DNA of 64,000 nt from Acaryochloris sp. CCMEE 5410 (GTDB lineage Bacteria; Cyanobacteriota; Cyanobacteriia; Thermosynechococcales; Thermosynechococcaceae). The DNA lies in assembly GCF_000238775.2 (NCBI RefSeq), contig NZ_AFEJ02000003.1, positions 1 through 64,000 on the forward strand. The letters run 5' to 3'. Within the stretch, counting starts at the first letter, position 1; each line of letters starts with the position of its first letter. Shown piece by piece: positions 4,251-21,833 of the stretch. The translations under genes were made by a program, and so were the position numbers. The notes under the pieces are model-generated. The model saw only the letters and a list, made by a program, of their open reading frames with translations. It did no database searches and was not told where the DNA came from.

Positions 4251-4489
4251 CACACAGGCTATTTCTTCCAAAGGATTCCCTCTAAATTACTTATCAACAA
4301 CTTATTCCATCGAAAAAGTGAAAGAAAGAATAAGTTAATATCTTCCTCAAAAACAAATATTATGTTGCAGTCTTAATGGTCTCCCAAGGATCACTATGGC
4401 CCTAAGTGGTTAATCAAGATGAACACAAAGACTATCTACACCTTCCTACTTCCACAGCTCATAGTGCTAATTGCTAGTACGTTATAGCT
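4251..4489. other. Spacer between divergent ruined genes
   Basis: About 240 bases, AT-rich, between the broken helicase (minus) and the broken recombinase (plus). No open frame or clear promoter stands out. Both flanking genes would be transcribed away from it, so their promoters should lie here. Confidence 0.4.
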
Positions 4490-6400
4490 ATGCGTTTATG
4501 GCTTGAAAAGATCTACAACACTACGTTTTTCCTGCGATCGCATCCCTACAGGACACACCAAAGGACCATGAAATAGCTGACCATTGGACAGCCTGGATGA
4601 AACAGCAATGGAAAACCCATGGGTTGGAAACCTTGAATCAGCAAAAGAATCTGATGGTCGAGGTCCGACAAGCTCTAAAGGAAGAGCTTGCAGAGAATCA
4701 CGTCATTTTGAGCATATGCGCTTCACCACTGACGAGTGGACGGAGATCAACCTTCAGGCAGGCTCTCAACCTCGTGAAGGCAGCATCCATCTCATCACCA
4801 ATCCTGATGCCATCGTTGCTAAGGCATCACAACTGCTCAAGAGCTGCCAATGGGCAAATATCATCGCGGGACTTACAGTCATTACAGGCCGCAGATGCGC
4901 CGAACTGCTCAAAACAGCCACCTTTTCTTACCAATCTCCTTTCAGTCTTTGGTTTACAGGGACACCAAAACTTCATCCAACTAAACCTCATCCTGCTTTC
5001 GAGTTGCCGACTCTGTACCTGCTGAACAGGTCATGGACTCAATTACACAGATCCGAGATCTGTTAGATACAAAGTTTATGGATAACCGGGAGATCAATCG
5101 TCATTATGGAAATGATGTTGCTCTAGCTTGCGATCTCAATTTCGCCGATCTCATCGATTACCAATCAGTAGAGGGAAACTTATACACCCAGCTCTCCAGA
5201 ACCATCTATGCTCGCATTGCAACCCATTGGTATGCCCCTCCCAAATTCTAGACATTGACTTTATGGCCGCCATTCAGGGACACTTCATCATCCTGCAAAC
5301 GAAAGACGTGGAAACGAAGAAATCCCTCGCTAAGAAGCGGCATTATTTTGATTACTTCATTGGCAATGAAATAGGCAAAATCAATAGACAACAAGGGATT
5401 CGTTTGCACGATCCAAATGTAAGTGTGCTAGTAGGCTTACACCCGGATGATGGACCTCCACCCAATCACTCCCGAGTGACCAAGCATCAGATTTTCCAGA
5501 TCTAGAACAAAGGATCGAACCGTCTCCGAACCTCCAAGCAGCCATCCAACACTTCCTTTCTGCACTTGCAACGCTTGAAACTCCTGAAGATATCAGAGAA
5601 TTAGTCAAAGGCGAGATTTCAAATTCAAGCATTACTCTGATTTTTTGGCGTTTATCAAGTGCCATTCAAGCAGCAGTCCACTCTGGTGATTTACCTCTAA
5701 TTGACAGTAAGACTGCATCCTGGAAGCGTTACACCAAAGAAGGATAAGTTACGAGGAACGACAACATTATGCCTTGGTCTTTTTAACGAACCCAGACATA
5801 CCTATTGCAACGCCATCTCCACCTCATCCGGTTTCAACTCCACCTCTAAAAAGCCACACTACACCCACCACCGCGAATCAGAGCTTAGACACCATTTCCC
5901 ATACTCTCTCTGAGTTATGTCAGACTTTGCTCCAACCACAACAGTCTCATGACAATATCGTGCCCAGCCCCTTAGAGCAGAAATAGATACCTTAATCGCT
6001 GCTCTCACTCAGCTATGTCTCGTTTTGCTTCAGCAACAGCAAATTTCTAAGCGCGTATCCAGCCCTTCACCGCCACAAGTTGCACCCCCTATCAAAAGCG
6101 AGGCAGGGGGCGTCTAGATCCCGAAGAAGCAAACGCCAAGATTCACCGCGCCATAGATGCCATTATGGCCTTCAACAACACTCCCAACCGGTCTCATGAG
6201 GAAATGTGGCGCATTGGGATTTCTTCACTTAAAAGGCTGACTCATTCGTCACAATCTGTCATTCAAAGAGTACATAAGCAAAGGGAAAAAGATATTGATG
6301 CCCATCATGAGAAGCATAATTTAGGAAAGTACCATAATCTCCCCATGGACATGCAGGCATAATGATCGATGAGGTTATCAAAGCTCCTGTGAATTCATAA
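4490..6400 (+). pseudogene. Ruined telomere-resolvase (protelomerase)-like recombinase
   Basis: The plus strand holds consecutive pieces of one protein of about 600 residues in at least four frames. They run from ATG 4490 (MRLWLEKIYNTTFF) through DHEIADHWTAWMKQQWKTHG, HMRFTTDEWTEIN, ANIIAGLTVITGRRCAELLK, MDSITQIRDLLDTKFMDN and HYFDYFIGNEIGKINRQQGI to SHEEMWRIGISSLKRLT and HHEKHNLGKYHN. The ITGRR..ELL segment resembles the first catalytic arginine region of tyrosine recombinases. The overall layout recalls the Telomere_res (ResT/TelK) family, which I recall having homologues on cyanobacterial plasmids. That assignment is from memory of the family, not an alignment. A proline-rich linker lies near 5790-5900. 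Single-base indels break it throughout; another plasmid recombinase or replication protein is possible. Confidence 0.5.
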
Positions 6401-6554
6401 ACAGAGGGCAAAGAGCACCTAATGTTTATCTCCAATACCCTCCAGACCTCTAGTACGTTGTTGAGGGCAGATGCGATCTCAGTGAAGCCTCCCATGCTCT
6501 CCACCCCTCATGTCGTAAGGTGGCTTCAGAACCATCATTTCTGGAGCAGCATTC

Positions 6555-6866
6555 ATGGCGACAGATATCCCCAAACCGACCGAAGTCATTCAGCAGATGA
6601 TTGATTTACGGATTCAACTCGCCGAACTAGAAGACCAAATCGAAGCCCTCAAACCGGCTTTCTTTGCAGCCTGTGCAACACAAGGAGACGACAAGTTTGA
6701 GCAAGAAGGGGCAATTATCGCGCGACGACTCACACCTGGCAAATGGATATATCCTAACCACATCACTGTCCAAGAGAGACAGCTCAAAATTCTCAAGGAA
6801 GAGTTTCGGCAAACCCACGAACCCACAGCAGGCAGGGAGATTATTTGGAGCATCAAATTCCTCTAG
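6555..6866 (+). CDS. Small conserved plasmid protein, unknown function
   Basis: An uninterrupted 103-residue frame in otherwise degraded DNA. The N-terminal 35 residues look helical and could form a coiled coil (EVIQQMIDLRIQLAELEDQI); the rest is mixed charged with no cysteine motif beyond a lone CAT. No signal peptide or membrane segment is visible. It follows the ruined recombinase on the same strand and precedes a Phd-type antitoxin. I do not recognise a function. Confidence 0.5.
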   Translation: MATDIPKPTEVIQQMIDLRIQLAELEDQIEALKPAFFAACATQGDDKFEQEGAIIARRLTPGKWIYPNHITVQERQLKILKEEFRQTHEPTAGREIIWSIKFL

Positions 6867-6917
6867 AACCTCCCTTTGATCTATGCGTTTTATCCAATAA
6901 CACTGGAACCAATTGAT

Positions 6918-7179
6918 ATGCCAGACGCCACAATCCTATCCATCACTGAAGCAAGCCAAACGCTCTCCGATCTCGTCGATCAAGTGAACGAGTCTCATGA
7001 ACCGATTATGATCGCAAGCGCGCAAGGCAATGCCGTTTTAGTCAGTGAACAGATTTGGAACGCATTGCAAGAACCCTCTATCTCAACTCCATTCCAGGGG
7101 TGTGGGATTCTATTGAAGTGGGCATCCAGACTCCCTTAAAGACTGCTCCGATACTTTAGCTTGGGCAGATCAATATTGA
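6918..7179 (+). pseudogene. Phd/YefM-type antitoxin, frameshifted
   Basis: The first 55 residues read cleanly from ATG 6918 (ATILSITEASQTLSDLVDQV, then SHEPIMIASAQGNAVLVSE). This is the DNA-binding and dimerisation core of Phd/YefM antitoxins. The family's usual C-terminus (ETLYLNSIPGVWDSIEVG and on to AWADQY) is recovered only after restoring one base near 7070 and one near 7137, both in short A runs. In intact systems it neutralises a RelE/YoeB-like RNase and autoregulates. No toxin frame follows; instead the convergent tniQ end lies 15 bases away. It is an orphan or remnant antitoxin, either way likely inactive as read. Confidence 0.7.
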
Positions 7180-7194
7180 ACGTCGCTGGGCCAA

Positions 7195-7714
7195 TCAAGG
7201 CGATTTTGCCGCTACCGGTAGCTGATCAGAAGCCATTTCTGCAAACGGTAAATGACAGTATTCACACTCACCAACCTGCCAATGCACTGGCAATTGGAAA
7301 GCGTTCCACATCGGGGACAAGCAGACAACAGTTGACGTTGATGACGATCGCAATGCGATATTTCAGCCATTTGCCAAGTCAATTGATGGGATGGAATTTC
7401 GGCATAACATAGCGCACAAAGGCGGGTCTGAAATAAAGCTGGGTCTCCTCTGAAACAGCATTAGGCACAGCCGAGCTACTTCCACCCCGTCAAATCAGAC
7501 AGGATATTGAGCGCAGCAGCATTCGGTATTCGACGACGAGAAGGCGTTTCCCAATAGGCAACCATATAGGATCTAAGTCTCAGCATGGTAGACAGGTGAC
7601 CACTACTCAGACAATTGGCTCGACGAAAGCGGCCCAAAAATGTCCAAAGCTTTCGTCTGGATAGGGTTGAACCTGAAACATCCAAGGTTGTAATGAGGCA
7701 ATCGATGGGGGCAT
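7195..7714 (-). pseudogene. tniQ: Short TniQ of type V-K CAST family, frameshifted
   Basis: TniQ links the target-selection complex to the TnsC filament in Tn7-like transposons. Reading minus from ATG 7714 gives PYPDESFGHFLGRFRRANCL in two frames, then WETPSRRRIPNAAALNILSD and LTGVEVARLCLMLF. It continues with LCALCYAEIPSHQLTWQ, HCDRHQRQLLSACPRCGTP and ECEYCHLPFAEMA, ending at 7195. The order, the length of about 172 residues and the two CxxC-type zinc ribbons match the small TniQ of Cas12k transposons closely (FLGRFRRAN and CPxC..PFAEMA are shared). Two or three single-base indels (near 7657, 7488 and 7288) interrupt it. It follows tnsC directly on the same strand, overlapping slightly. Confidence 0.85.
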
Positions 7715-7739
7715 CACACTCGAACCACAGCGAAGGCCA

Positions 7740-8582
7740 TCATAATGAACAGGATTTGACCACTTGCCTCAGGAGGCTATATTCAATGCGAGTTCGCCCC
7801 ATCAGTAAAGTTTGAATGGCTGCTTCTCGGAGAATTTGATCTAAGAGCCCTATATATCCTTGGGTTTTCTGAAGGAGCAGATCTTGAGCTTTAGCACTGG
7901 TGAGTTTTGAGGGTTCAGGTAGTTGCAGGATATGCTCTTCCAAAGGGCCGTGGTCTCTCGTAACTCTTCTGAATTTAGACGAGGCATATGATAGGTCAAC
8001 AGAAATCGATATTTAACTTGCTCATCCCAGCTCAGTACAGCATTAAGACGATCGGTTCCCACTAACACAACTGATATTTCCAACTTGTCGGAAATATCAC
8101 GGGCCTCAGATATGGCCCGTTCTGTCAGACGTTGCGCTTCATCCAGAATCAGCATCTCAACACCACAGTTGGAGAGAACGTTATACAGCCGTTCTCGTAA
8201 TTCTGGAATCCGGCCCCTGTTGCCCGATATTGGAGGAGTTGCAACAGACCTGTAAAAAGCCACTCACTGACAAGTTTTCTGGACAATGCCAATAGGCGAC
8301 TGGAATGATGGGCGCATAGCCTGGGTTCTGCGTGACGGTATGTTTCAAGTGGTAGGTATCACAGCTAATCGTTTTTCCCGTTCGTGATTCTCCAACCACT
8401 CGGCAGGATTGACGGGTCAAACGCTTGGCATCTAGCCAGGTATGAAATCGCGTCATCTGAGGCAGCTCAAGAATACGGCGTTTACCTAATTGCCTAATTT
8501 GCTCTTCCACATCGATGGGTTCAGCTTGCTCTTCGATAGGGAGCGCTTTAGTGGACGACTCATTCAGATGCTCTGATGCCAT
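7740..8582 (-). pseudogene. tnsC: TnsC-type AAA+ transposition regulator, V-K CAST family, frameshifted
   Basis: AAA+ ATPase that forms filaments on target DNA and recruits the transposase. From ATG 8582 the frame gives LDAKRLTRQSCRVVGESRTG followed by KT (Walker A). Restored downstream frames give LSNCGVEMLILDEAQRLTE (Walker B), ISVVLVGTDRLNAVLSWDEQ (sensor 1) and GYIGLLDQILREAAIQTLL. These match TnsC of Cas12k transposons segment by segment. Indels near 8255, 8215 and 7940, two of them in short homopolymers, split it into four reading pieces. Total length would be about 280 residues, normal for the family. Start codon lies 28 bases after the repaired tnsB stop. Confidence 0.85.
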
Positions 8583-8610
8583 AGGGGGTCACTCCATATG
8601 TTCAGTGGAC

Positions 8611-10277
8611 TTAGAGGCCATGTTCCCGACGTAGTGTGTCGTAGTCATACACCTGAATCTTAGGCAATGGCTGGGTAACAACGGGTTCATCAGGCGCTTC
8701 CTCTTCATTTTCGGTCGATGGTTGAGGGAGCAGGTCAGGTTGCTCTTCAGGCATGGGGAAAGGTTGCTCTAGCAAGTTGTCGATAAACTGGGTGCGATCT
8801 CGTACCTCAGCTAAGACGGATTTATTGGTGACTTCTTCTGAGGCTTGGCGCAGACGACGACTGATAGCTTTCGCTTCGGATAAGACAGACGCTCCGTTTC
8901 TAAGTTTTGAGCGCGGGCTCGGGTCAGAAAAACGTCTCTGGGGCCTTCTTGCCGATAAATCAGCAAGCTGGTGATATCACGCGGGTCATAACGAAGAACG
9001 ACTTGTTGTCCGGCATAGCCTGCTAGATATTCACCTCGATAAATAAGGTTGGAGAAGCGAATATACCCACCTCGATAGACTCGGCGACGATCCTGACGCA
9101 TCAAGAGAAGGTCTAAGTCTCGCTCTTCAATCAACGGGGGTTGGGCAATACGGCCTTCTTCCCAACGGGCTAAACGACTTTGTTTACCTAGACGCGGATC
9201 TGGGAGTTGGTTATACCGATCCACGATGTAGCGCACGAGTAAACGCTCTAGTTGATGGAGGGTCAGACGGGCTTCACTTTCAGCCCGTTTGCGGTGGTTC
9301 TTGAGGCAATTAGTGGTGTAGCCGGGAAGGGTTGAGAAAAACTCACTATTTAAGGTGCCAAAAGGCCGCTCAACGATCCCGCCATCTGAGGGTTTCCGAC
9401 GTAAACATAAAACGATGCCTAAGCTGGCAGCGACTTGATCAATATGATGGGACGTAAAGTCACTGCCGCCATCGGTATAGAGGTATTGGGGGACGCCATA
9501 GGTGCCCCAGAGGTTCATTAGCTCATACTCAGCTCCGTACTGCTTGGGTAAGATGGCGTGGCGCAGGGCCAAGCAGGTGACGGCGGCACTAGGGTAGGAC
9601 AGACCTAAGTGAATGCCCATGATGCACCGGGAATAGGTATCAACAATGGTAGTCAGGGTGGGACGACCCAGGATATCACCTTGCTGATCCACAACTAGGA
9701 TGTCGGCAGGGGTATGGTCGCATTGCCACACCTGATTGCTATATTCGATGTTCAGCTCTATCCCTTTACGAGTGGTGAGCTTTAAGGTTTCTCCATTCCA
9801 ACCAATCGCTCGACGTTTCTTCTTGAGCGATCGTGACTTCACTTCTGGCTCTAGAATACGGTAGACAGTAGCTCGACTGGGATATTCCGACTGACCGAGT
9901 TTTGCAGCCCTACTTTGCACAAGATTAGCAATTTGAGCAGGAGCTGTATGACGCATCCCACGGTTTCCTTTACGGTAGGTTTGCACAATAAACTGATGCC
10001 AATCTTCACTCACTTTGAGTTGCCCTTGATCTGAACGAGACTGACGAATGATTCCTTCTATACCTTGCTCACGGAATTGGTGTATCAGGCGACGCAGACT
10101 ACGATCACTGAGGCTTAACTCTTGAGCGGCCTTTTTTCGCTCTTGGACATATCTCTTGCACCCTTCGTAACTCTTTAACCGTTGCAATACCTCTAGACGG
10201 CGCTGCAAGTGATACGGAAGCGGTTCTGTATTGTTCAGAATCTTCTGTTCTACCCCGTCAGCTAATCCTTCTGACAA
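8611..10277 (-). pseudogene. tnsB: TnsB-type DDE transposase, V-K CAST family, one frameshift
   Basis: The transposase that binds the element ends and joins them to target DNA. A 488-residue frame from a TTG at 10277 contains winged-helix regions (RSLRRLIHQFREQGIEGII) and the retroviral-integrase-fold core. The DDE residues lie in WQCDHT, LYTDGGSDF and GGIVERPF. The C-terminal part (YRGEYLAGYAGQ, DPRDITSLLIYRQ) resembles the TnsB of Cas12k transposons strongly. One base missing near 8884 (LSLSEAKAISRRLR restored) shifts the frame. The shifted frame continues for another 90 residues to a TAA at 8611, ending VYDYDTLREHGL, the tail expected to contact TnsC. The upstream DNA at 10369-10712 carries its putative binding sites. 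Confidence 0.9.
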
Positions 10278-10368
10278 AGGAGTCTCCGATGTTTGTTCTA
10301 TAGTTGGTAAAAGTCAGACACGTCGCACTAAACCACTGACAATTTTCAAACATTTTTAGCCCGAGCAC

Positions 10369-10712
10369 GTCTCACGCTATTTGTCCGAAACTCATTTTAA
10401 GACTACGAGACAAAAGCGGTGAAACCTTCATCGAAAAAGAAATAGATGCAGCTCAGACAAAGTATAAAACGTCTCACGCTATTTGTCCGAAATAGTTAAG
10501 CAAAGTGTCTCACGCTATTTGTCCACAATTCCTATAGCCTTTACCCAGAAATAAATACAGCAAAGTAAAGCTTGATTAAAGAAGAATACTTTTGATAAGA
10601 AATGAACAGATCAATCAATTAAAGATGTCGCTGTAATGCTTACTGTAAAATCTTTTAGCTATATCTGGACAAATAGCGTGAGACGATAGGACAAATAGCG
10701 TGAGACATGACA
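10369..10712 (-). mobile_element. tnsB-proximal transposon end with five 18-bp repeats
   Basis: Five perfect copies of GTCTCACGCTATTTGTCC lie here: plus orientation at 10369-10386, 10471-10488 and 10507-10524, minus orientation at 10667-10684 and 10689-10706. The last two are 22 bases apart. Read inward on the minus strand the element begins TGTCATGTCTCACG at 10712, and TGT...ACA termini are the rule in Tn7-like elements. The following five bases (ctgat, 10713-10717) would be a target duplication if the other end were found. Position, sequence and repetition fit TnsB binding sites in the left end of a V-K-type element. Confidence 0.85.
10525..10666. other. AT-rich interior of transposon end
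   Basis: The stretch between the third and fourth 18-bp repeat has no open frame. It probably is only the spacer of the transposon end. Confidence 0.4.
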
Positions 10713-10983
10713 CTGATACTATTTTATATCACACCTATGAACTTACACCTAAAAATCATATAAGCGATCGCAGATCTACTCTGTGTGACGCAGGATCTCG
10801 GATCGGATCGTGTGATCACAGCGCTCATTCAAAAATCTTCCCCTGTGTTATCGCCTGTGCTCCTTACTGTGTATAGCTTATAGACTTTGTAAAGTTGCGC
10901 TACAATTTCCAATTCTACCCTTGCCTCTTTCTTATACCTATATGCTTCTCGTACCTATTTATTAATTCTCATATCTTAAATAC

Positions 10984-11012
10984 TTGACTTTAGGTGTGAA
11001 TATTGCTATATT
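10984..11012 (+). promoter_or_regulatory. Sigma-70-like promoter
   Basis: TTGACT at 10984-10989 and TATATT at 11007-11012 are separated by 17 bases. This is a near-consensus housekeeping promoter at the head of the rightward small-gene region, just outside the transposon end at 10712. It probably drives the plus-strand plasmid genes that follow. Confidence 0.5.
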
Positions 11013-11471
11013 AGGTACAGGTTGAGAGACAGGCCGTTCCTGCTCCACTCATTACTTCCACAACTAAATAGAACTGCGACGAATGCAGAAGGCTTATAGA
11101 CTGCCGCTCCTAGCCGTACCTATAAGGATTGCACCGCACCTCGAAGGATCAGTAGAGGGTTCTATTACCCCCACAATTTGCACCCTACAAAGGACGATGA
11201 CCGTATGGTACACCCCACGCTTACCCAACGTTCTAAAGCCTGGATCTCGCTCAATAAAAACTAGGCTTCGACCTGGAAATTCCCCTGTTGATGCGTCTCA
11301 TTTATGCGATACCTTGACCCTATTGAACTGATCGAACTGAAAGCAAATATTGATGCCGCTATAGAGTCTAAATTATTTGAAGCTACTACAGAATAAGGAT
11401 TATAGCTCTTTTCTTTCTTATGTAATTTGAACTTATTTTTACATAAGAAAGTCATACGGAGGCCCGCCGCA
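11013..11471 (+). other. Poorly coding stretch with a 30-residue frame
   Basis: No recognisable gene. A short plus frame at 11304-11396 (MRYLDPIELIELKANIDAAI...) has acidic, helical composition and ends just before an inverted AT-rich sequence near 11405-11450 (TTTCTTATGTAA...TTACATAAGAAA) that could form a hairpin terminator. The rest shows only shadows. Confidence 0.3.
11423..11453 (+). terminator. Hairpin, possible terminator
   Basis: TTTCTTATGTAA and TTACATAAGAAA form a 12-bp perfect inverted repeat with a short loop after the 30-residue frame. There is no long T tract, so intrinsic termination is plausible but not assured; it also resembles a generic palindromic repeat. Confidence 0.35.
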
Positions 11472-11603
11472 ATGCCCAAACCCTCTGACTACCGCTTGCT
11501 CTTACTCCTGGTCTTGGTGATCATTGTGCTCGACATTTGTTCACAGGCCAGATCACAGCCTCAAAACCATTTCCCTTCAGTCATACCTTCCACGCTGTTC
11601 TAA
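11472..11603 (+). CDS. Small membrane peptide, unknown
   Basis: A 43-residue frame from ATG 11472 to TAA 11601 with one strongly hydrophobic segment (LLLLLVLVIIVLDICSQA). It starts about 10 bases after a GGAGG motif (11458-11462), a good ribosome binding site. It could be a single-pass membrane or secreted peptide. No family recognised. Confidence 0.4.
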   Translation: MPKPSDYRLLLLLVLVIIVLDICSQARSQPQNHFPSVIPSTLF

Positions 11604-11948
11604 TCCATCACTAGCCATCTGTTCTTTGCGATCGCAATCGGAGGCCATCATGACAGCCACTCAAATACTGCCCAGGAACAACTTCTCGACAGACCGCTAG
11701 GATTTGGTGAAAGTCCTAGCGCTATTGCCATATTCTGCAATCGAGCTAACACTCATACTTGGTATACCCTCGATTCTAATTCCCAACCCAAGAAATCCCT
11801 CATCCTGCTCTCACTGGCTTCCTCAAAGCCTGGAGTTCATCAAAGGGGAATACAAAAGGAAACCCACCTGTAAATCAGAGTCAAGCTTCAGGCGCATCGT
11901 CCCTGCACCCTGGAAGCTGGTGCTGAGTCCGTCTTCGCTAAAGGCTTA
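11604..11948 (+). other. Degenerate small coding remnant
   Basis: After a GGAGG (11640) an ATG at 11650 opens a 16-codon frame (MTATQILPRNNFSTDR) ending in TAG. Beyond it, pieces such as ANTHTWYTLDSNSQPKK and SPHPALTGFLKAWSS appear in another frame. This looks like a small plasmid gene with indels. I do not recognise the family. Confidence 0.3.
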
Positions 11949-11951
11949 TTG

Positions 11952-12158
11952 ATGGCGATCGCGAATCTCAATACGAAACAGCTCCTTCAGCCCATCACCA
12001 TCGAGGCCGTCCCTTCAGATCAAGATGACAAGGTGCTGTTCTGCCGGGTCTGGTTGGGCACTCAAAAGGTCTTCCAACGGTGGGATGAAACAACCCATTG
12101 GCGCGATGTTGCCAAGAAAGCTATCGATAATGTCGCTCCCCTGCAACCGCAAGGTTGA
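11952..12158 (+). CDS. Small conserved plasmid protein, unknown
   Basis: About 68 residues (MAIANLNTKQLLQPITIEAV...), ending APLQPQG. The sequence is soluble with a beta-rich middle (DDKVLFCRVWLGTQKVFQRW). It overlaps a HIP1 site near its start. No signal peptide, motif or recognised domain; it resembles small orphan proteins common on cyanobacterial plasmids. Confidence 0.45.
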   Translation: MAIANLNTKQLLQPITIEAVPSDQDDKVLFCRVWLGTQKVFQRWDETTHWRDVAKKAIDNVAPLQPQG

Positions 12159-12240
12159 CTTTGAATGCTGAGATCGCCCCCAAACGGATGGGGGTGATCA
12201 CTAACCGATGATAAGACCACGCCACAATGAGGGCTGCATC

Positions 12241-12500
12241 ATGCAAATGTATAAACTCACTTTCCCAACCCAAAACCTCTACTCAACTCCAATGGATTGC
12301 CAATGTGCCCACGGCCAACAAGAGGAATACGGGGGAGAAGTTCTACCCTGTTTTGATTGCTTCTTGACGGATGGCAGCACCCGAGAGGATGGATCGGTCG
12401 CCATTCTCTCCCGTGAGTGGCTGACTATGACTGAACTGGAGAAATATAATTCAACGCGACAACATACCCAAGAAGTTTGGGAGCGGGTAACGCCTGCTGT
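12241..12500 (+). CDS. Cysteine-containing small protein A, unknown
   Basis: From ATG 12241 (MQMYKLTFPTQNLYSTPMDC) the frame contains CQCAHG and CFDCFLTDG followed by LSREWLTMTELEKYN. The CxxC pairs suggest a small metal-binding fold. The coding character fades near 12500, where a second related protein starts in another frame. The open frame formally runs to 12681 but its tail overlaps protein B and is probably out of frame. A and B may be one gene split by a frameshift. Confidence 0.4.
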
Positions 12501-12512
12501 TGCCAATACCCC

Positions 12513-12785
12513 ATGTATCAGGTGGTTAAACATGATGTGCCGTTCAATGTCATGGATCGACTGGCTGCTGAACAATTCCTGGAGCAGGATGAGGATGACC
12601 TGTGCTCGATGGAGCCCTGTCAAGATTGCATTTGGACATATACCGAAACCTGCCCTGACTCGGATTTTGATCCCTATATGACTGCCCGCTCCCGTGAATG
12701 GCTCTCTGCTAATCAATTAAACGAGCGGAATACACACCTAGAGTTCCTTGGACAAGCCTGGGTAATCGCTTCCCAATACTTCTAA
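12513..12785 (+). CDS. Cysteine-containing small protein B, related to A
   Basis: From ATG 12513 (MYQVVKHDVPFNVMDRLAAE) the frame carries SMEPCQDCIW and ARSREWLSANQLNERN, the same CxDC...SREWL arrangement as in protein A just upstream. It ends at 12785. Either a tandem duplication or the second half of a single frameshifted gene with two repeats. Function unknown. Confidence 0.4.
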   Translation: MYQVVKHDVPFNVMDRLAAEQFLEQDEDDLCSMEPCQDCIWTYTETCPDSDFDPYMTARSREWLSANQLNERNTHLEFLGQAWVIASQYF

Positions 12786-12843
12786 CTGTTCTGTAACTGC
12801 GATCGCAGATGCTCATCGTTGGGGATACTACCTGCGATCGCAA

Positions 12844-12889
12844 GGACAAATTGCGTGAGACAAAAGGACAAATTGCGTGAGACACGACA
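12844..12889 (-). mobile_element. Second transposon end of the same family
   Basis: Two copies of GGACAAATTGCGTGAGAC at 12844-12861 and 12866-12883 differ at one position from the 18-bp repeats at 10369-10706, and have the same 22-base spacing. They are followed by ACGACA ending at 12889, matching ATGACA at the 10712 end. The orientation is the same as the 10712 end, so the two cannot be opposite ends of one element. It is a relic or the end of a neighbouring element. Confidence 0.75.
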
Positions 12890-13092
12890 GCAACAATAGC
12901 CTATCTCCACAATGTTGAGAATGGAGTCAATAGCTATATCCCCGCGAGCTGCCCCCAGTCCCTCGGCCAACCCATCGCTGGAATACCTATAAATTCGTTG
13001 TTTTTCCTAAAGGCAGTACTTGTCTCTTAAAACAGCTATTGAGTATAGTTCTCAGCTACTCCTAACGACACATTCATAGAGGGTATTTCACC
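12890..13092. other. Spacer upstream of sigma factor gene
   Basis: No open frame of note. A TTGTCTC...-type sequence near 13019 and TATAGT near 13039 could serve as a weak promoter for the sigma factor gene at 13093; a GAGGG sits 13 bases before its ATG. Confidence 0.3.
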
Positions 13093-13811
13093 ATGACCTA
13101 TACCACTCCTTTCCCAACTCATCAGGGAAAACAACTCTCTGATCGACGATATCTAACCACTGATGAACAATTAGCCTTAGTCTCTCAAGTTCAGGCCCGT
13201 ACCCTACTCCTCAAACAGAAGAAAGCAGGGCTAACCCTCGAAGAAACAAGGATTTGCCTTCGCGGTGAACGCGCACTCAAAGCACTCGTGGAGGGACATC
13301 ACAAAATGATTTGGTTGATGATCCATCGCTTCAACTTTTCCGATCGTCTGACCACAGATGAGCTGTTCCAAATCGGCATCATCACCATTGAAAAGGCCGC
13401 TAACTACTACAACCCCACTCGGCCTGGACGATATAGAAGATTCTCAAGCTGGGTCTTTTCCTCCTCAGACAGAAGTTCCGCAACCTCTTCAAGCAAGAGC
13501 TGGGATATGAGCACAAACGCAAAACACTGTATGGGCAGCTCAGGATGAATGCTCCTCTATGCAATCATGACACCCCTCAAGACTTCGCCATCCTCGAAGA
13601 GTTGAAGCAACTGCTCAAGCCCCTCTCCAAGACGCTATCGTTCAAAAAGCAAATCCATGCATTCCGGGCCTTTTACCTGGACGGTGAAACCACTCAGCAG
13701 ATTGCCCTCAGCCTGGAACTGACGGTTGGCAGTGTCAAAGCCTATCTCTACGAAGCCCGAAAACAACTCAGGGGCAATCCCCAGATCCAAGAATGGGTAA
13801 GGCTGTACTGA
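13093..13811 (+). pseudogene. Sigma-70 family factor, one frameshift
   Basis: The first frame (13093-13548) gives LTTDEQLALVSQVQARTLLL and a region-2-like core (ALVEGHHKMIWLMIHRF, DELFQIGIITIEKAANYYNP). After restoring one base near 13464 (SFLRQKFRNLFKQELGYEHK) the downstream frame to 13811 supplies region 4 (FRAFYLDGETTQQIALSLEL, SVKAYLYEARKQLRG), a helix-turn-helix. About 240 residues in total, typical for a small plasmid-borne group 3 or orphan sigma factor. The single indel separates the core-binding from the -35-binding half. Confidence 0.7.
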
Positions 13812-13955
13812 ACTTTCCTTTGGCCAGGGGAAAACCCTATCCGCCTAGCTGGAATGCTAACCCCTGTGCGATCACAAACCCCTACTGCCGGGGATATAGC
13901 CTGCGATCGCAAAACCTCTTTCTACAAATCAATATCCCAATCAAAGAGACGATCT

Positions 13956-14105
13956 ATGAAAAGATTCACTCTCTCTTTCTCCCGTGTCCTTCAACGACTC
14001 AAGGACCATTTCAAGCTGCAACAATGCGCTTCCTGTGGACTGTGGTACAGAACACTGGAGCTTGACCAAGATGGCATCTGCCACGACTGTGGGCGCTATC
14101 TCTGA
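13956..14105 (+). CDS. 49-residue zinc-ribbon-like protein
   Basis: ATG 13956 to TGA 14105. The C-terminal half has CASCGLWYR and CHDCGRYL, a four-cysteine CxxC...CxxC ribbon; the N-terminal 20 residues are basic and helical. AGAG precedes the start. It probably binds zinc and nucleic acid or a protein. The longer overlapping frames in this region lack this motif and are likely shadows. Confidence 0.5.
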   Translation: MKRFTLSFSRVLQRLKDHFKLQQCASCGLWYRTLELDQDGICHDCGRYL

Positions 14106-14155
14106 TGAGGCAATACCCCTCGTATAGCCAATAATTACGCCTTGGAGGGCTCACC

Positions 14156-14335
14156 ATGACTCCTTTCGATTATGAACTTGCCAAGGGCAATTTAATCAGC
14201 GCTATCAATCTCGCGATCCAGGATGCAAACCAAGCTCTTGACGATGCCGAAAACGCGATCACTAACCTCAATAAACGACAACTACATATCCATCATCTCG
14301 CTCAAAACGCTCTCAACAAGTTTCAAAGACTGTAA
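14156..14335 (+). CDS. 59-residue helical protein, unknown
   Basis: ATG 14156 follows GGAGG (14144-14148) at a good distance. The sequence (MTPFDYELAKGNLISAINLA ... ALDDAENAITNLNKRQLHIH) looks like one or two long amphipathic helices. No cysteine, signal or membrane segment. It lies between the zinc-ribbon gene and the DUF6876-like gene, likely one transcript. Confidence 0.45.
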   Translation: MTPFDYELAKGNLISAINLAIQDANQALDDAENAITNLNKRQLHIHHLAQNALNKFQRL

Positions 14336-14394
14336 ACGAAGCACCTTACTTAACTGCTTCAACCCTCTCGCTACAAATTTCAGAGGAAACATTT

Positions 14395-14697
14395 ATGCTA
14401 ACTGCTTCTGAACTGCTTGCTGATCTTGATCATTACTATTGCACTACACAACATTACAAACACCCCTTTGGCCTTCTCTATACCGATGGCGTTAAGGCAC
14501 TGGCTATGGGTGGGGAATGCTACTGGCTCATCGATGCGATCGCGAGTTATCAACCTGGAAAAGTCATTCGCGCTAATCCCACGCTCTTAGAGTTCCAGCG
14601 CTGGATGTTAACGGTCAATCCTGACAAAAGTGCGCTCTTGGCTTGCTACGAAGATAGTCCCGAAACCCATAGAACAAAAAGGGTTGTGACTTTGTAG
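14395..14697 (+). CDS. DUF6876-like protein
   Basis: A clean 100-residue frame (HPFGLLYTDGVKALAMGGEC, YWLIDAIASYQPGKVIRA). The YTDGV..LA...YWL.D.IASYQ pattern is what I associate with DUF6876, a family of small proteins on plasmids and phages with no known function. GAGG precedes the ATG. It is the last of the small plasmid genes. Confidence 0.6.
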   Translation: MLTASELLADLDHYYCTTQHYKHPFGLLYTDGVKALAMGGECYWLIDAIASYQPGKVIRANPTLLEFQRWMLTVNPDKSALLACYEDSPETHRTKRVVTL

Positions 14698-15052
14698 ATC
14701 CTGCTAAGAGACTAGTGCCAGATCTTCAGGCAAGCAGGTTCTTATTACACTAAATTTCAGTAAGCCAGATACATTCTAAATTATCAAAAACCATATATAG
14801 CAATATTTTGACAGCTTAGCTAATTTTAAATTCTGATTTTGGTCAAAAACCTGGAATTAAAATCACCAATCTTATATAGTGATCCGCAAGTGCTGATTCA
14901 GTGGTCAAAATTATGTCGCGTTTCGCTCAAATTTCCGACATTCCACCAGTTCGTCTCGTTGAGTTGGGTTTGAAAAAATCGGATGAGAGCAAGTCTTAGT
15001 TACACTCAACTTATGCGTACAGGGCTGGTTCACAGGAGTTCCTGTAGAGCTT
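14698..15052. other. AT-rich spacer, no gene
   Basis: No supported frame. It separates rightward plasmid genes from the leftward efflux operon, so both transcripts end here. No clear hairpin with T tract was found by eye. Confidence 0.4.
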
Positions 15053-18000
15053 CTAAGGTTGATTCGATTGTAGTGCTTTTCGTTGCTTCCCCTGAGATCT
15101 TCTTTGCATGAAGCCCTTGATGAACTCCATAGCATCATCCACAAACGTATAGACAATCGGCACCACAATCAGCGTTAGCAGGGTCGAAATCACCAACCCT
15201 CCCAAAATTACCGTTGCAATGGATGAATAGGCATCTGAGCCAATTTCAGGAAAGAAGGCCAGCCGCACTACAACAATTAGTGTAGTTAGTGTAGTCATCA
15301 CAATTGCTTTTAGCCGTACTGGTCCAGCCTGTGAAATCGCCTCTTCTCTGGAAATACCTTCCCTTCGCTTGGTTAAAATCAGCTCCAATAGCAAAATTGC
15401 AGCTGACATAGACAGGCCCGAAAGAATGATAATCCCCAGAATTGAAACCGTGGACAGTGTTTGATTGGCGAGAATCAACCCACCAAAGACACCCACGAGT
15501 TGCAACGGTACCGATAACATCATCACCAAGGGGTGAATAAAGGAATTGAACTGGATGACCAGGATGATATAGATCAGCATTAGTGAAATGGCTAGACCAT
15601 TGAGCAGGCGTGTGAACTCAGTCATCATGTCGGTCATATCGCCCATGGAGTCAATCCCATAGCCAGGTGGAATCTCTAACTCAGCTCCAGCGTGCATGGC
15701 GATCGCCATGCTCAAATCCATTGAAGCAGGACCCTGGCGGCGGTAGTAGCCATTGACATAAACCACCCGCTTGCTGTTGACATGTTCAATCAATGTTGGT
15801 CCTTGACGATAGTCGAGCTGCACGAGCGTATTCAGGGGAACCTGTTGACCGTTGGGTGTTGTCAGGTAGGTACTTTCTAAATCTTGGACTGTTCCCCGAT
15901 CTACTTCGTCATAGCGCACCAAAATTGAATTCTGCCTTAGATTTGGTCGGTTGTAAGAACGCTGGGTCATGCCGCCATTGAGGGCAAATCGGGCTTGGGT
16001 GGCAATGGCTTCTACATTCAAGCCCAACTCTTGGGCACGGCGGCGATCAATATTTAGCATTAGCTCTGGCTGTGTCATGGCTGCACTAGTGTGAGCCATC
16101 ATTAGCCCCGGCGTCTCTTCAGCAATCCGCAATACATCGTTCGCCAGCGGGTGGAGGATATCGAGATCATCACCATAGATCGCCAGCTGAACGGGGGCGG
16201 CGGAGGTGGCCATGACATCCACACCCATTTCTTTGAGGGCCAACCGTCGGATACCGGAGATCGTTGCCATTGCCTCGGCGTGAACCTCATCCATCACTTG
16301 CCAGATGTCACGCTCACGATTCAGCTTCAGCGTCACGGTGAGCGAGGCGGTATTAGCATTGCCCATACTGTAGCCCGTAAAGTAAGTGCTATTCCGGGTA
16401 AGTTCAAAGCCTACTTGGGAGGAGACTTTTTCCACCTCCGGCTGTTGAAGCAACAATGCTTCTAGCTGGGCAGTACTGGTATCGGTTTTAGCGAAGGAAC
16501 TGCCTGCCTCCATTTCTAGTGTGGCCATAAACTGCCCAGAATCGCCTAAGGGCATCATTTCCTGAGGTACGAGCGGATAGAGCGAGATGGCCAAAACCAC
16601 CGTAGAAGCGATGACGGCCAAAGTCACTTCTCGGTTGCGAAGCGTTAGCTGCAAGAGCCATCTGTAACTGCGCTCTAATTGTTGGAAACTATAGCTAATG
16701 GGAGTCAGTAATTTTTGCAGCCAAGTTTTGCGGTGGGTTGGAGACCAGGTGCGATAAAAGAATGCCGCCAGCAGTGGTACCAGCGTGACCGACACTAGGA
16801 CCGACGCCACAAATGCAAAAATCATCGGCCACACAAGCCCCACAAACATGAGTCCTGTTAGACCGCCAGACAGCATGCTCGGCAGCAACGCAGCCACCAT
16901 CACACAACTGGCTGCGACACTGGCTAAAAAGACTTCGCCAGTTCCCCGAATTGCCGCTGCCAGTGGACGGAACCCCTGACGGATCTTTTGCTCAATGGAA
17001 TCAATCACAATGATGGAGTCATCCACCAGTTTCCCAATCGCCATCATCATGCCAATCAACGTCGAAGAGTTGAGGGACATCTGCATGGGACCAAAGGGCA
17101 ACGTTGAAAGCGCCAGCGACATGGGAATAGAAATCATGATCAGTGCTGTGGCGCGGAAGTCCTGTAGGAAGAGTAAAATCACTCCCCCGGCTAGGAGAAC
17201 ACTGATGAGCAGTTCCTTAAACGTGCTCTGCAAAATGATATTGACCAGGAAGGAGTTGTCATAAGCTTCTTGAAATTCCAATCCTGGATATTCCTGTTTA
17301 ATCTTCTCTACTTCTGCTCGCACCCGCTTAATCACCGCTGGAGAGCTAGAGTCCGGCTTTTGAATAATATTCACAGCCAGGGCCGCTTGGCTGTTGTAGC
17401 GGTAACTGCTGCGGCGTTCTTCAAAGGTATCCTCAACTGTCGCCACATCTCGAAGATAGACCACTTGGCCATCGCGCTCTAGGAGTGGATAGTCTAGCAG
17501 CGCCGCTGCATTTTGCACCCGCTCATCAGTGCGCACGAGAATTTCTGTATCCTCCCGCGTTAGGATGCCAGAGCCTTGGCTCAAATTATTCCGATCCAAG
17601 GCATCGCGCACCTCCACAATAGACAGCCCATAGGCTCCCAGCTTTTGGCGATCGACAATCACTTGTAGCTGTCGTCGGTAACCACCAAAGATCGAGACGG
17701 CCTGAACATGGTCCACTTGGGTGAGCCGATCCACTAGGGTATTATCGGCAAACTCCCGCAACTGCACCGGGTCCCATTGATCCCCCGTCAGGGCCAAGGT
17801 CAACACGGGGCGGTTTAAAGGGTCAATGGGCAACACCCAGTAGGACCGGGCGTTGAGTCCTTGTAGTTCAGTATCTCCCTCCGCTGCATTCATAAGGCTT
17901 TGGACAGATTGAACAGCCCGATTAATGTTGCCGCCCCAGCCAAACTGGATCGTTATCAGGGATAGATTTTGCTGGGAGGTTGAGCGCACAAACCGGACAT

Positions 18001-18232
18001 CTTCCAATACCGTCATGCGCTGTTCCAAGGGCTTGGTAATATAGGCTTCCACCTCCTCCGGTGACGAGCCAGGGGCTTGAGTAATGACGGCCACCAGCGG
18101 ACTTTCCACGTAGGGCATCATCCTCACGGGCAACCCCAGCAACACCAATAGTGACAGGATCAAGATACCGATATAGAGTGCAGTTACTAGAACTGGATGC
18201 TTGATAGACCAGCGGGTGAGAAATTCTTTCAT
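15053..18232 (-). CDS. RND efflux permease (heavy-metal/drug, CusA/AcrB-like)
   Basis: A 1059-residue inner-membrane proton-driven pump of the RND superfamily. The first membrane helix is at residues 13-35. The large periplasmic loop includes ESPLVAVITQAPGSSPEEVE. Transmembrane segment 4 carries the proton-relay pair in IGKLVDDSIIVID near residue 405. A second half repeats the fold after about residue 530. Family length is 1000-1070. The DD pair and operon place it among pumps exporting metals or small toxic compounds; the exact substrate is not readable. It is the last gene of the operon adaptor (20552) - YtkA lipoprotein - permease, with short gaps. A putative response-regulator box and a MerR-type palindrome lie upstream of the operon. 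Confidence 0.9.
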   Translation of the reverse strand: MKEFLTRWSIKHPVLVTALYIGILILSLLVLLGLPVRMMPYVESPLVAVITQAPGSSPEEVEAYITKPLEQRMTVLEDVRFVRSTSQQNLSLITIQFGWGGNINRAVQSVQSLMNAAEGDTELQGLNARSYWVLPIDPLNRPVLTLALTGDQWDPVQLREFADNTLVDRLTQVDHVQAVSIFGGYRRQLQVIVDRQKLGAYGLSIVEVRDALDRNNLSQGSGILTREDTEILVRTDERVQNAAALLDYPLLERDGQVVYLRDVATVEDTFEERRSSYRYNSQAALAVNIIQKPDSSSPAVIKRVRAEVEKIKQEYPGLEFQEAYDNSFLVNIILQSTFKELLISVLLAGGVILLFLQDFRATALIMISIPMSLALSTLPFGPMQMSLNSSTLIGMMMAIGKLVDDSIIVIDSIEQKIRQGFRPLAAAIRGTGEVFLASVAASCVMVAALLPSMLSGGLTGLMFVGLVWPMIFAFVASVLVSVTLVPLLAAFFYRTWSPTHRKTWLQKLLTPISYSFQQLERSYRWLLQLTLRNREVTLAVIASTVVLAISLYPLVPQEMMPLGDSGQFMATLEMEAGSSFAKTDTSTAQLEALLLQQPEVEKVSSQVGFELTRNSTYFTGYSMGNANTASLTVTLKLNRERDIWQVMDEVHAEAMATISGIRRLALKEMGVDVMATSAAPVQLAIYGDDLDILHPLANDVLRIAEETPGLMMAHTSAAMTQPELMLNIDRRRAQELGLNVEAIATQARFALNGGMTQRSYNRPNLRQNSILVRYDEVDRGTVQDLESTYLTTPNGQQVPLNTLVQLDYRQGPTLIEHVNSKRVVYVNGYYRRQGPASMDLSMAIAMHAGAELEIPPGYGIDSMGDMTDMMTEFTRLLNGLAISLMLIYIILVIQFNSFIHPLVMMLSVPLQLVGVFGGLILANQTLSTVSILGIIILSGLSMSAAILLLELILTKRREGISREEAISQAGPVRLKAIVMTTLTTLIVVVRLAFFPEIGSDAYSSIATVILGGLVISTLLTLIVVPIVYTFVDDAMEFIKGFMQRRSQGKQRKALQSNQP

Positions 18233-18253
18233 CGGGCTTACGCCTTCATTGAC

Positions 18254-18709
18254 CTACTTCACCTCAAAGGCTAGGGTTGCAGGTTCAGCATCCTTGGCCT
18301 TTACCTGCACTGTCCAAGGACCAGCCATCCCAAAGTTGGTTTTAATTTTGAACTCCTGGGCTTTATCTCCGGGTTCCACAATGGCCAGAGAGGTCATATC
18401 CGCTTCGCCTTCCATGGGCATTGAGACTTGGACAGAGACATCCTCGGGCGTGAGATTCTCCTTCTCAACGCGAACCACCAGTTCGGCATCGCCCATGGGC
18501 ACTTCGGCGGATTTAGGACTCACTAAATGAATATCCTTAGATGTGTTGCTGGGGTCCATGCCTTCCTTGTCACCATCAGGCTTGGATTTTGCCTGCTCTG
18601 TGGGAGCTTCTGCGCTGTCCGATGTCTCTGCAGCTTGTTCTCCTGATTGGGCACTACAGGAAAATAGAAAGGTGCTCACAAGAGCGATCGCCAAAAAGAT
18701 TTTCTTCAT
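18254..18709 (-). CDS. YtkA/FixH-like domain lipoprotein
   Basis: About 151 residues from ATG 18709, chosen because GAGGA lies 7 bases upstream; a GTG at 18721 is the alternative. The N-terminus is a lipoprotein signal (LVSTFLFSC). An acidic serine/alanine-rich linker follows, then a beta-sandwich domain (LVSPKSAEVPMGDAELVV ... KIKTNFGMAGPWTVQVK). The domain resembles YtkA-like (PF13115) modules. It is also a clear paralogue of the last 95 residues of the adaptor encoded next door (KTHFGMKGDWVIKAQVKDAE). It may work as an extra periplasmic partner or metal-binding module of the efflux system. Confidence 0.75.
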   Translation of the reverse strand: MKKIFLAIALVSTFLFSCSAQSGEQAAETSDSAEAPTEQAKSKPDGDKEGMDPSNTSKDIHLVSPKSAEVPMGDAELVVRVEKENLTPEDVSVQVSMPMEGEADMTSLAIVEPGDKAQEFKIKTNFGMAGPWTVQVKAKDAEPATLAFEVK

Positions 18710-18773
18710 ATCAGTCCTCACAATGAATGATGTTGATATTGTTTGAGGTCAATTCAATCCCTCGAAAGGCGTT

Positions 18774-20552
18774 CTATTGAGCCGTTAGCTTGAACTGGGC
18801 GCGTCCTAGATGCTCGGCATCCTTGACCTGGGCCTTAATCACCCAGTCTCCCTTCATCCCAAAATGGGTCTTTACCCGAAACTTACCCGGTTCCGGTAAA
18901 GCTTTGAGGTCTACCATGGCCGTCATGGGAGCCATATTTTTCATCGGCATAGTCACATCCACTTCAAGCTGCTTAATGGCCAAGGGGGATAGAGTGTCCG
19001 CATCGACCACTTGCAAAATCAACTCCTCGGTCCCGGCTTTCACTGTTTTCGTCTTGGGACGGACCAGCTGAATTGAGACATTTCCCGCAGTCGGCGTGGA
19101 CAATGAAGCTACGGGCTCACCAGCCGCGTTGACGACCGCAACCTTTGAGTCTTCTAACAATCGCGAAGTGCCCGTTGTAATGACATGATCGCCGGACTTC
19201 AAGCCCTTCACTATTTCAACACGATCACCACTCACGAGCCCCCGTTTTACCCTGCGCCTCACTGCGACTGCCTCTTCGCCATTACCCTGCACCACCCACA
19301 CCGCTGGCTGCCCCTGAAACTGATGCAGAGCCGTCTGGGGGACGGACAGTGTTGCGGGTTTACTGGCCTTGATGATCTGCATTTCTAGAAACTGACCCGA
19401 CAGTAGCTGATCGCTGGGGTTATTCACCACTGCCTCTACAGTGACTGTGCGCGTTCGAGGATCGGCGCTGGGGAAAATGCTGGTGATTTCACCAGTGATC
19501 GGTGGCATCTTCGTACCCGGAATCAGGGCTTTGACGCGGGTTCCTTTACCAATTCCGACCGCATCGGCCTGAGCGACATTTGCCCGTAACCTCACCCGGC
19601 TATAGTCCCCAATTTTGAGCACCCCCATTCCGGGCTGAACCACTACCCCCGGATCGGCCATCCGAGACTGCACAATCCCGCTAATGGGGGCGGTGAGATT
19701 GGTGTAGCGCTCCATGACAACCGCCGTGTTCGCCTTTGCTTGGAATTGATTGATCTTGGCACGGTCTCGCCCTAGCTCTGCCTTCATTCGCACCCACTTG
19801 GTTTTTGCTCCAGAGATCGCTGACTCCTTGGCTGCCACCTCTGATGCGACGAGGTCATAGTCGTTTTGGGAAATGGCCCCGCCTGCAGCCAGAGCCTTAA
19901 AGCGTTTGGCCTTGAGCTTCATGTAATCCAGTTCAGCAGCCATACGGTCAATCTCGCGCTGTTGCTCCTCCAACTGCATGCTGTTAGCGACTAGAATCTC
20001 ACGCATGACGTCCCTCTCAGCCTTCGCTTCGACCAGTTCAGTTCGTCGTTCTAAGGCATCAAGTTGGGCAATCACTTGGCCCTTGGTAACGCGATCGCCT
20101 GGGTAAATTGAGTAATCTCTGAGTTGTCCCGCGACGCGCGGGTACACCGTGACTTCTAGGTAGGGATACACCGATCCCGTATACTGAATCGTTTCCTGAA
20201 CCAAACCGGGGCGGATTTCCTCTACCTGAACGGGTATTGCATTGAAAGCCCCATCCACGGCCATCATCTCATCATGAGACATACCCCCATGATCCATTGT
20301 CCCCTGCTCTGTATCTGCCATCGCCATCTCACCGAACTGCTTGACAGCAAACCAGATGCCACCTGAGAGGACCATGAAAATGCCCAAGGCAAATAAACTT
20401 TGGAACGGACGAAAGCCAGGGGAATGACTGATAGAGGCGACCTGGGAGTCATTATCCTCGCACGCATCGCCTTCGGCCTCCTCAACTTTGGCTAATGGAG
20501 AAACAGATATTTCTGATTCAGCAGGGTTAGACTCGACACGATCTTGGGTCAT
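18774..20552 (-). CDS. RND periplasmic adaptor (HlyD/CusB-like) with C-terminal YtkA domain
   Basis: A 592-residue membrane-fusion protein. There is a membrane anchor around residues 52-72 and a MGMS-type histidine/methionine stretch at 80-95 (MDHGGMSHDEMMA). The lipoyl/barrel regions are YPYLEVTVYPRVAGQLRDY and TNLTAPISGIVQSRMADPG, with a coiled-coil hairpin between. Usual adaptors are 350-450 residues. Here about 95 extra residues (498-592) form a YtkA-like domain that is paralogous to the lipoprotein next door. It connects the permease to an outer-membrane channel. No outer-membrane channel gene is present in the window. Confidence 0.88.
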   Translation of the reverse strand: MTQDRVESNPAESEISVSPLAKVEEAEGDACEDNDSQVASISHSPGFRPFQSLFALGIFMVLSGGIWFAVKQFGEMAMADTEQGTMDHGGMSHDEMMAVDGAFNAIPVQVEEIRPGLVQETIQYTGSVYPYLEVTVYPRVAGQLRDYSIYPGDRVTKGQVIAQLDALERRTELVEAKAERDVMREILVANSMQLEEQQREIDRMAAELDYMKLKAKRFKALAAGGAISQNDYDLVASEVAAKESAISGAKTKWVRMKAELGRDRAKINQFQAKANTAVVMERYTNLTAPISGIVQSRMADPGVVVQPGMGVLKIGDYSRVRLRANVAQADAVGIGKGTRVKALIPGTKMPPITGEITSIFPSADPRTRTVTVEAVVNNPSDQLLSGQFLEMQIIKASKPATLSVPQTALHQFQGQPAVWVVQGNGEEAVAVRRRVKRGLVSGDRVEIVKGLKSGDHVITTGTSRLLEDSKVAVVNAAGEPVASLSTPTAGNVSIQLVRPKTKTVKAGTEELILQVVDADTLSPLAIKQLEVDVTMPMKNMAPMTAMVDLKALPEPGKFRVKTHFGMKGDWVIKAQVKDAEHLGRAQFKLTAQ

Positions 20553-21391: not shown

Positions 21392-21497
21392 GCCTTAGGT
21401 GTAAAAATGCATATTTTTCTTGAATGGGGTAGTTTCCTTGGAAATTGAGTCTGCGATAGATAGGATTTCATCGTTTGCAGATTCATGCTACACCTAA

Positions 21498-21519
21498 ACT
21501 CTCAAGTTAGCTTGAGAGT
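21498..21519. promoter_or_regulatory. Perfect MerR-type palindrome
   Basis: ACTCTCAAGTTAGCTTGAGAGT is palindromic except for one central base. It is flanked on both sides by CCTAA/TTAGG, extending the symmetry. It stands before a degenerate short frame at 21560 (MSQITKAQEVHSTISALKYG, stop at 21632). Confidence 0.6.
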
Positions 21520-21833
21520 TTAGGTTAGAAACAATGCAGTTATCAAAAGTGTGGTGAGAATGAGCCAGATCACGAAAGCTCAAGAAGTACACTCCACTAT
21601 ATCAGCGTTGAAGTATGGCGAGTTGGCTACTTAGACAGCGGTAGCGATCGCCGCTTTAATTGAGGCAGGGGTATCTTACCCCCCATATTGACCGGAATGC
21701 CTATCTAAAGCATCTGCCTTTTGAGGTCTTGAGTGCGGACTGGGAGTAGCATCTTATGCAAAAACGAACGAACAACGCCAACTTAATGCTTTTGGAGCAG
21801 GCTTTGTCATAGATAGGCTATTTGTAAGCACCC
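21520..21833 (+). other. Degenerate stretch, no intact gene
   Basis: An ATG at 21560 opens a 24-codon frame ending at TAG 21632, and coding-like fragments (AVAIAALIEAGVS, YLKHLPFEVLSADWE) follow in shifted frames. It appears to be the ruin of a short MerR-controlled gene of unknown family. Confidence 0.3.

Follow-up and report, generated by a model that had tools for sequence, protein, structure and literature searches.

The window analyzed here comprises the first 64,000 nucleotides of contig NZ_AFEJ02000003.1 (C3) of Acaryochloris sp. CCMEE 5410. It contains two transposon ends that face the same way, an inner one and an outer one (Table 1), which raises the question of which of them is in use and how the other came to lie there. 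On the + strand of the outer end, the 18-mer GGACAAATTGCGTGAGAC was found twice with a start-to-start distance of 22 nucleotides, and the second copy is followed by ACACGACA up to position 12889. Compared with the 18-mers of the inner end (10667-10684 and 10689-10706), they differ by one base, a T for an A in the ninth position, and between the complete 46-mers of the two ends, both on the same strand, there are 5 differences in 46 positions. A sequence-only reading of this locus had described two 18-mers with one mismatch to those of the inner end, the same 22-base spacing, an ACGACA terminus and the same facing, all of which are present in the sequence.

The assignment of both ends to the same transposon family also holds. 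Within the window, seven matches to the 18-mer (up to 3 mismatches) were found compared to 0.08 expected, and none of 100 shuffled sequences reached this number. In the whole genome (up to 2 mismatches), 21 of the 22 matches fall within three transposon loci, namely the window locus, a second copy on the same contig and one locus on the chromosomal contig C1, instead of being scattered over many unrelated sites. The remaining match lies alone at C1:3501425 (2 mismatches). In six other Acaryochloris genomes, no match with up to 1 mismatch was found (0/6). A dispersed or chance repeat unrelated to transposition has a practically negligible probability in view of these counts, and positions 12844-12889 were confirmed as a real end motif that is tied to transposon ends.

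Table 1. Features of the transposon module, its two ends and the flanking DNA in the window.
Feature	Position	Strand	Description
Telomere-resolvase-family gene	4489..6321	+	Frame-broken here, intact in C1; approximate coordinates
orf103	6555..6866	+	Convergent to tniQ; conserved in 15/79 TnsB loci
tniQ (small)	7195..7710	-	Approximate coordinates by offset from C1 copy
tnsC (TniB family)	7850..8582	-	Frame-broken in this assembly
tnsB	8811..10277	-	488 aa open in window; Pfam rve + Mu-transpos_C (DDE core, Mu C-terminal domain)
Three inverted 18-mer sites inside LE	10369..10524	+	10369-10386, 10471-10488, 10507-10524
Inner end (LE) of resident element	10667..10712	-	Terminus 5'-TGTCAT; exact boundary of copy common to C1
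Flank motif	10716..10737	+	ATACTATT...ACACCTA just outside inner end
Interval between the two ends	10713..12843	.	
Outer solo transposon end	12844..12889	-	tnsB-proximal (LE) type; two sites + terminus 5'-TGTCGT
18-mer, inner of outer-end pair	12844..12861	-	Putative TnsB-binding site
18-mer, terminal of outer-end pair	12866..12883	-	Putative TnsB-binding site
DNA past outer end	12890..14656	.	Still common to inverted second C3 copy

The module of the resident element was found in three copies (C1:1-15273, C3:1-10712 and C3:409128-416239), each located at a contig end with the LE towards the interior, with a gene of the telomere resolvase family and no opposite end found. The C1 copy is bounded exactly at the inner end. 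Directly past position 10712, the first three bases of the two flanks differ (CTG against TAA), followed by a short similar stretch and then by unrelated sequence. Since the C1 and C3 modules agree up to 10712 and their flanks then diverge, the inner end was shown to be a real boundary and the working end of the resident element. The second copy on C3 (C3:405169-416239, inverted) does not stop at the inner end but runs on through the interval, the outer end and another 1.77 kb, up to 14656, so that its boundary is not at 12889; the homology breaks off inside a DUF6876-like gene (14395-14697). This copy is an inverted duplicated arm and not an independent case, and it is uninformative on the use of position 12889. 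The proposal that the segment 10713-12843 was mobilized by way of the outer end was not upheld, as the C1 copy, the only one with an independent placement, has other DNA outside its inner end, and neither was an element ending at 12889 found in this genome. Among the Acaryochloris plasmids pREC1, pMB01 and pMB08, no relative with an empty site was detected; these gave single-gene alignments and no junction.

No tnsB remnant or older transposase was recognized in the stretch that separates the two ends, and part of this stretch resembles Acaryochloris plasmid DNA. Positions 10969-11162 look like a promoter segment and contain a conserved leader of ~150 nt, without an Rfam match in window 1-20000. 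Segments of this type are repeated at C3:295293, 299205, 305903 and 404836 before different genes, with an identity of 82-86%.

The tnsB-proximal end of this clade has a TGTC terminus and mostly two sites 21-32 bp apart, the distance being 22 in the inner as well as the outer end of the window. A candidate opposite end, read by eye at L045:12555-12683, has widely spaced sites of which the terminal one is degenerate. By this spacing, the inner and the outer end were both shown to be of the LE type, and the outer end is consequently not the partner of the inner one. As the opposite end (RE) of the resident element it was rejected, since both its facing and its spacing are wrong. A terminal TGT and several TnsB-type sites are present at one end of the resident element, and in the 15.3 kb of the C1 module no opposite end was found with up to 5 mismatches; the contig ends there. 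The layout of three inverted sites inside the LE recurs in relatives. The outer end holds only two sites and lacks inverted ones, and its left neighbour (12798-12843) resembles an intergenic unit at 13867-13912. Because of the missing inverted sites and this ordinary-looking neighbour, the outer end is probably a truncated LE relic left by an older relative of the resident element. In locus L041, the LE sites are locally duplicated in tandem. A further case of stacked ends was seen by eye at L099:12937-13659, where two RE-like ends face the same way at a distance of ~600 bp and enclose an LE-like end.

Judged by its predicted genes, the resident element is a Tn7-like transposon with tnsB, tnsC, a small tniQ and an antisense ORF of ~100 aa. 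The gene order leftwards from 10712 is tnsB, tnsC, tniQ, orf103 (convergent) and a gene of the telomere resolvase family, whose enzymes form the closed tips of linear DNA. The relatives of tnsB are about 570 aa long, and TnsB could be aligned to ShCAST TnsB (PDB 7svw) over residues 20-467 (6.8e-160). The tniQ copy on C1 (L024:6748-7275) matches PF06527. For orf103, the predicted structure (mean pLDDT 73.7, pTM 0.42) would consist of a coiled coil and a hairpin and is not informative, and a PHROGs search gave no match. The telomere resolvase gene is intact in C1 (L024:4030-5874, 614 aa, PF16684 2.8e-24) and is weakly similar to protelomerases of solved structure, 4dwp among them. Homologues of it lie inside the locus in 6 of the 79 TnsB loci, all of the same clade, and two of these six (L045 and L092) look cut by the LE. 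Farther out in C1, a UvrD-type helicase with an exonuclease domain, a PD-(D/E)XK protein and an N6/N4 DNA methylase were read, and the gene cut by the contig end has homologues annotated as DEAD/DEAH helicase or TnsA-N proteins. Together these genes make up a restriction-like set distal to the module (L025:1-4846 and L024:1257-3773).

An alignment of the C1 and C3 modules over 10,908 bp shows 7 mismatches and 176 gap positions, and of the 118 gap events that separate the two C3 copies, 72 are located in homopolymers. Due to the many indels relative to the C1 copy, mostly of the homopolymer type as checked between the C3 copies, the broken frames and apparent pseudogenes in window 1-10700 are probably assembly (sequencing) errors.

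For the placement of the element, a TnsB tree of 71 rows was used, taken from a set of 79 TnsB loci. The window TnsB falls into a clade of 18 rows (support 100/99), in 14 of which orf103 adjoins tniQ. Cas12k was found at 14 of the 79 loci, none of them in this clade and 12 of them in the tree, all outside it; as some of the contigs are short, absence at one locus means little. The profile NF038191 (Cas12k) had no match in the whole genome. In this tree, the clade appears as a well-supported Cas12k-less group, separate from the Cas12k (type V-K CAST) clades. Guide-RNA targeting was considered and rejected, with no Cas12k in the genome and no Rfam match in window 1-20000, L024 and L154. No tRNA was found in L023-L025.

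An outer LE of its own was identified on C1 (C1:16740-16785), 1.47 kb outside the C1 inner end and with the same facing. Of its 46 positions, 8 are different in the window outer end and 7 in the inner end. Since C1 thus has its own, different, same-facing relic, the stacking of ends was shown to have occurred at least twice, at two distinct loci. If two orphan ends were placed randomly in 8.09 Mb, the chance that both lie within ~2.2 kb of a resident end and face as it does is estimated at about one in ten million. A gene fragment with an FGE-sulfatase domain (L024:11263-11493) is located just inside the C1 outer end.

The sequence just outside these ends is also conserved. The motif ATACTATT...AYACCTA follows three of the four distinct ends (window-inner, C1-inner and C1-outer). 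Its four matches in the genome all adjoin ends (three distinct sites, one of them present twice), and 28 further genomes of the order gave no match. The heptamer ATAGTAT was found at -10 to -4 outside the same three ends as well as in L034 and L036, which are relatives from other genomes. A different flank is common to L035, L038 and L039; in L039 only its final seven bases are visible. In the sampled stretches, clusters of AYRCCTA were confined to the neighbourhood of these ends of the genome studied here. The flank motif supports the existence of preferred insertion sites. The window outer end is without it, so that shared targeting is shown for the C1 outer end and not for the window relic. 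No unoccupied copy of the motif is present in the genome, contrary to what a plain target would predict. At 21492-21525, a palindrome of 34 bp was observed whose arms begin with ACCTAAA, akin to the motif beside the transposon ends.

Repeated, polar insertion at preferred sites is the favoured explanation of the stacked ends, with a probability of roughly 0.6. An earlier insertion of a related element would have left the truncated orphan LE at 12844-12889, and the resident element would have inserted later, 2.13 kb away and with the same polarity, using the inner end at 10712. The same facing of the stacked ends would then arise from preferred sites together with a fixed end polarity. We infer this order of events, along with the binding of TnsB, the control of polarity and the loss of transposition by the relic. 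Several observations speak against repeated insertion: the motif is missing at the window outer end, neither an unoccupied motif copy nor a relative with an empty site was found, the interval is without a recognizable older transposase, and a second solo LE outside the mapped one was found in 0 of 14 mapped relatives, several of which have very short upstream flanks.

The sequence-only reading had left the choice between a tandem insertion and end capture, of which successive insertion is the better reading and end capture gained no positive evidence. In an end capture, a functional outer end would pair with the distal end, and the segment 10713-12843 would move in a longer element. The two intact-looking sites and the TGTC terminus of the outer end are in keeping with such a use, but the boundary of C1 at the inner end, the passage of the second C3 copy beyond 12889 and the lack of any copy ending there make it very unlikely. 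The 46 bp could also be a tiny end fragment that was inserted or rearranged. Four identical bases (GCAA) are found on either side of the outer end (12840-12843 and 12890-12893), and to its left lies what seems to be an ordinary intergenic repeat unit. However, the expected duplication is 5 bp and not 4, a four-base match is weak and the C1 outer end has no such flanking pair, and such an origin is highly improbable.

A succession of ends linked to telomeres is considered rather unlikely. The module would be a subtelomeric segment of linear replicons without an opposite end, with the layout inner LE, tnsB, tnsC, tniQ, orf103, telomere resolvase, more genes and tip. It would spread by LE joining, for example through an LE-to-LE unit formed by a replicated telomere before resolution, and new ends would take the place of old arms, with the older LEs left behind at more internal positions and always directed inwards. 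All three module copies sit at contig ends and have their LE turned inwards, which fits this, as does the lack of an opposite end in the C1 module. At C1:1 a gene is cut off, and the assembly does not contain its C-terminal half. The ends of C3 are inverted and have no direct overlap; C4 and C5 overlap directly, as circles do. In addition, C1:18739-29012 corresponds to C2:1-10185 with zero mismatches. These inverted duplications at the C3 (1-14656 and 405169-416239) and C1/C2 contig ends suggest linear replicons or a palindromic junction. Cy782202 of Gloeothece PCC 7822, recorded as linear and also called linear in PMC4320622, carries from its left end a telomere resolvase, a small ORF, tniQ, tniB and tnsB, which is the gene order of the window module; no clear opposite end was found there, with one ambiguous match (2 mismatches) at 1212. 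Gloeocapsa pGLO7428.02, likewise recorded as linear, has identical inverted ends of 1,340 bp (L205:1-1340 and L214:18484-19823), whose tips are perfect palindromes of 36 bp and resemble a hairpin telomere. It has a tnsB relative at 3.1-4.7 kb, but this gene is split and has no recognizable LE.

Against a telomeric origin, assemblies broken at repeats likewise end contigs inside transposons, and the resolvase family is also found on plasmids recorded as circular. The arms of C3 have DNA in common past the LE, which is not expected from simple insertion. At the end of the C1/C2 block lies a transposase gene, and this block may therefore be an IS-mediated duplication. Furthermore, the interval between the stacked ends is not recognizably older module DNA. 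The idea that a telomere resolvase always goes with a linear plasmid was rejected because of the circular records. No terminal palindrome was found at the contig ends (two are internal in C3 and others internal to C6 and C14), and Rfam gave no match at the right ends of C1 and C2. As a synthetic Tn7 with two tnsB-proximal ends is functional according to a review (PMC11406308), transposition of a replicated telomere with an LE on either side would be possible in principle. It is conceivable, but doubtful, that a one-ended Tn7-like module with a telomere resolvase acts as a transposable telomere, moving as LE-module-telomere-module-LE between replication and resolution. If this were true, its insertion would linearize circular replicons or swap their ends and leave stacked same-facing relics. 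Should the contig-end placement and the resolvase link hold, a transposase would spread bacterial telomeres, which would give a testable way for circular replicons to become linear. No publication combining a telomere resolvase with tnsB was found, and in the titles and abstract openings retrieved for protelomerase with Tn7, transposon, cyanobacteria or linearization this link was not recognized.

The resident element can be compared with known Tn7-like systems. It is similar to the type V-K CASTs in the alignment of TnsB to 7svw and in the small tniQ, and the arrayed end sites of the two presumably resemble each other. It differs from them in that no Cas12k is present in this genome and that TnsB belongs to another, well-supported clade. 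Repeated polar stacking of ends and a conserved site outside the end are documented here for a sister group of the V-K CASTs that lacks Cas12k, and because of the conserved site just outside the end this group may choose its targets without a CRISPR effector.

The element is placed near Tn5469, which is probably of the same kind and presumably has a small antisense ORF as well. As in the resident element, a single small tniQ and no CRISPR effector are described for Tn5469 in a review (PMC11406308), where it is a cyanobacterial Tn7-like transposon with one TniQ, without cargo and apparently untargeted. In contrast to this, a flank motif common to the LEs and extra genes beside the module are found here, and an opposite end was not found. 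With the Tn5053 family, for which insertion at preferred sites is stated in the same review (PMC11406308), the element has in common a DDE transposase, a TniB-type ATPase and TniQ. The differences are that no Tn5053-type resolvase was detected among the proteins scanned here and that TnsB is nearer to V-K.

Telomere resolvases and tyrosine recombinases have a related chemistry, and the position of a telomere resolvase beside a Tn7-like element is reminiscent of Tn6022 and its TnsF. There, according to PMC10293859, a tyrosine-recombinase-like protein serves a Tn7-like element. TnsF is described as being without a catalytic site (PMC10293859), whereas the predicted telomere resolvase of the module retains the expected catalytic R, K, R, H and Y.
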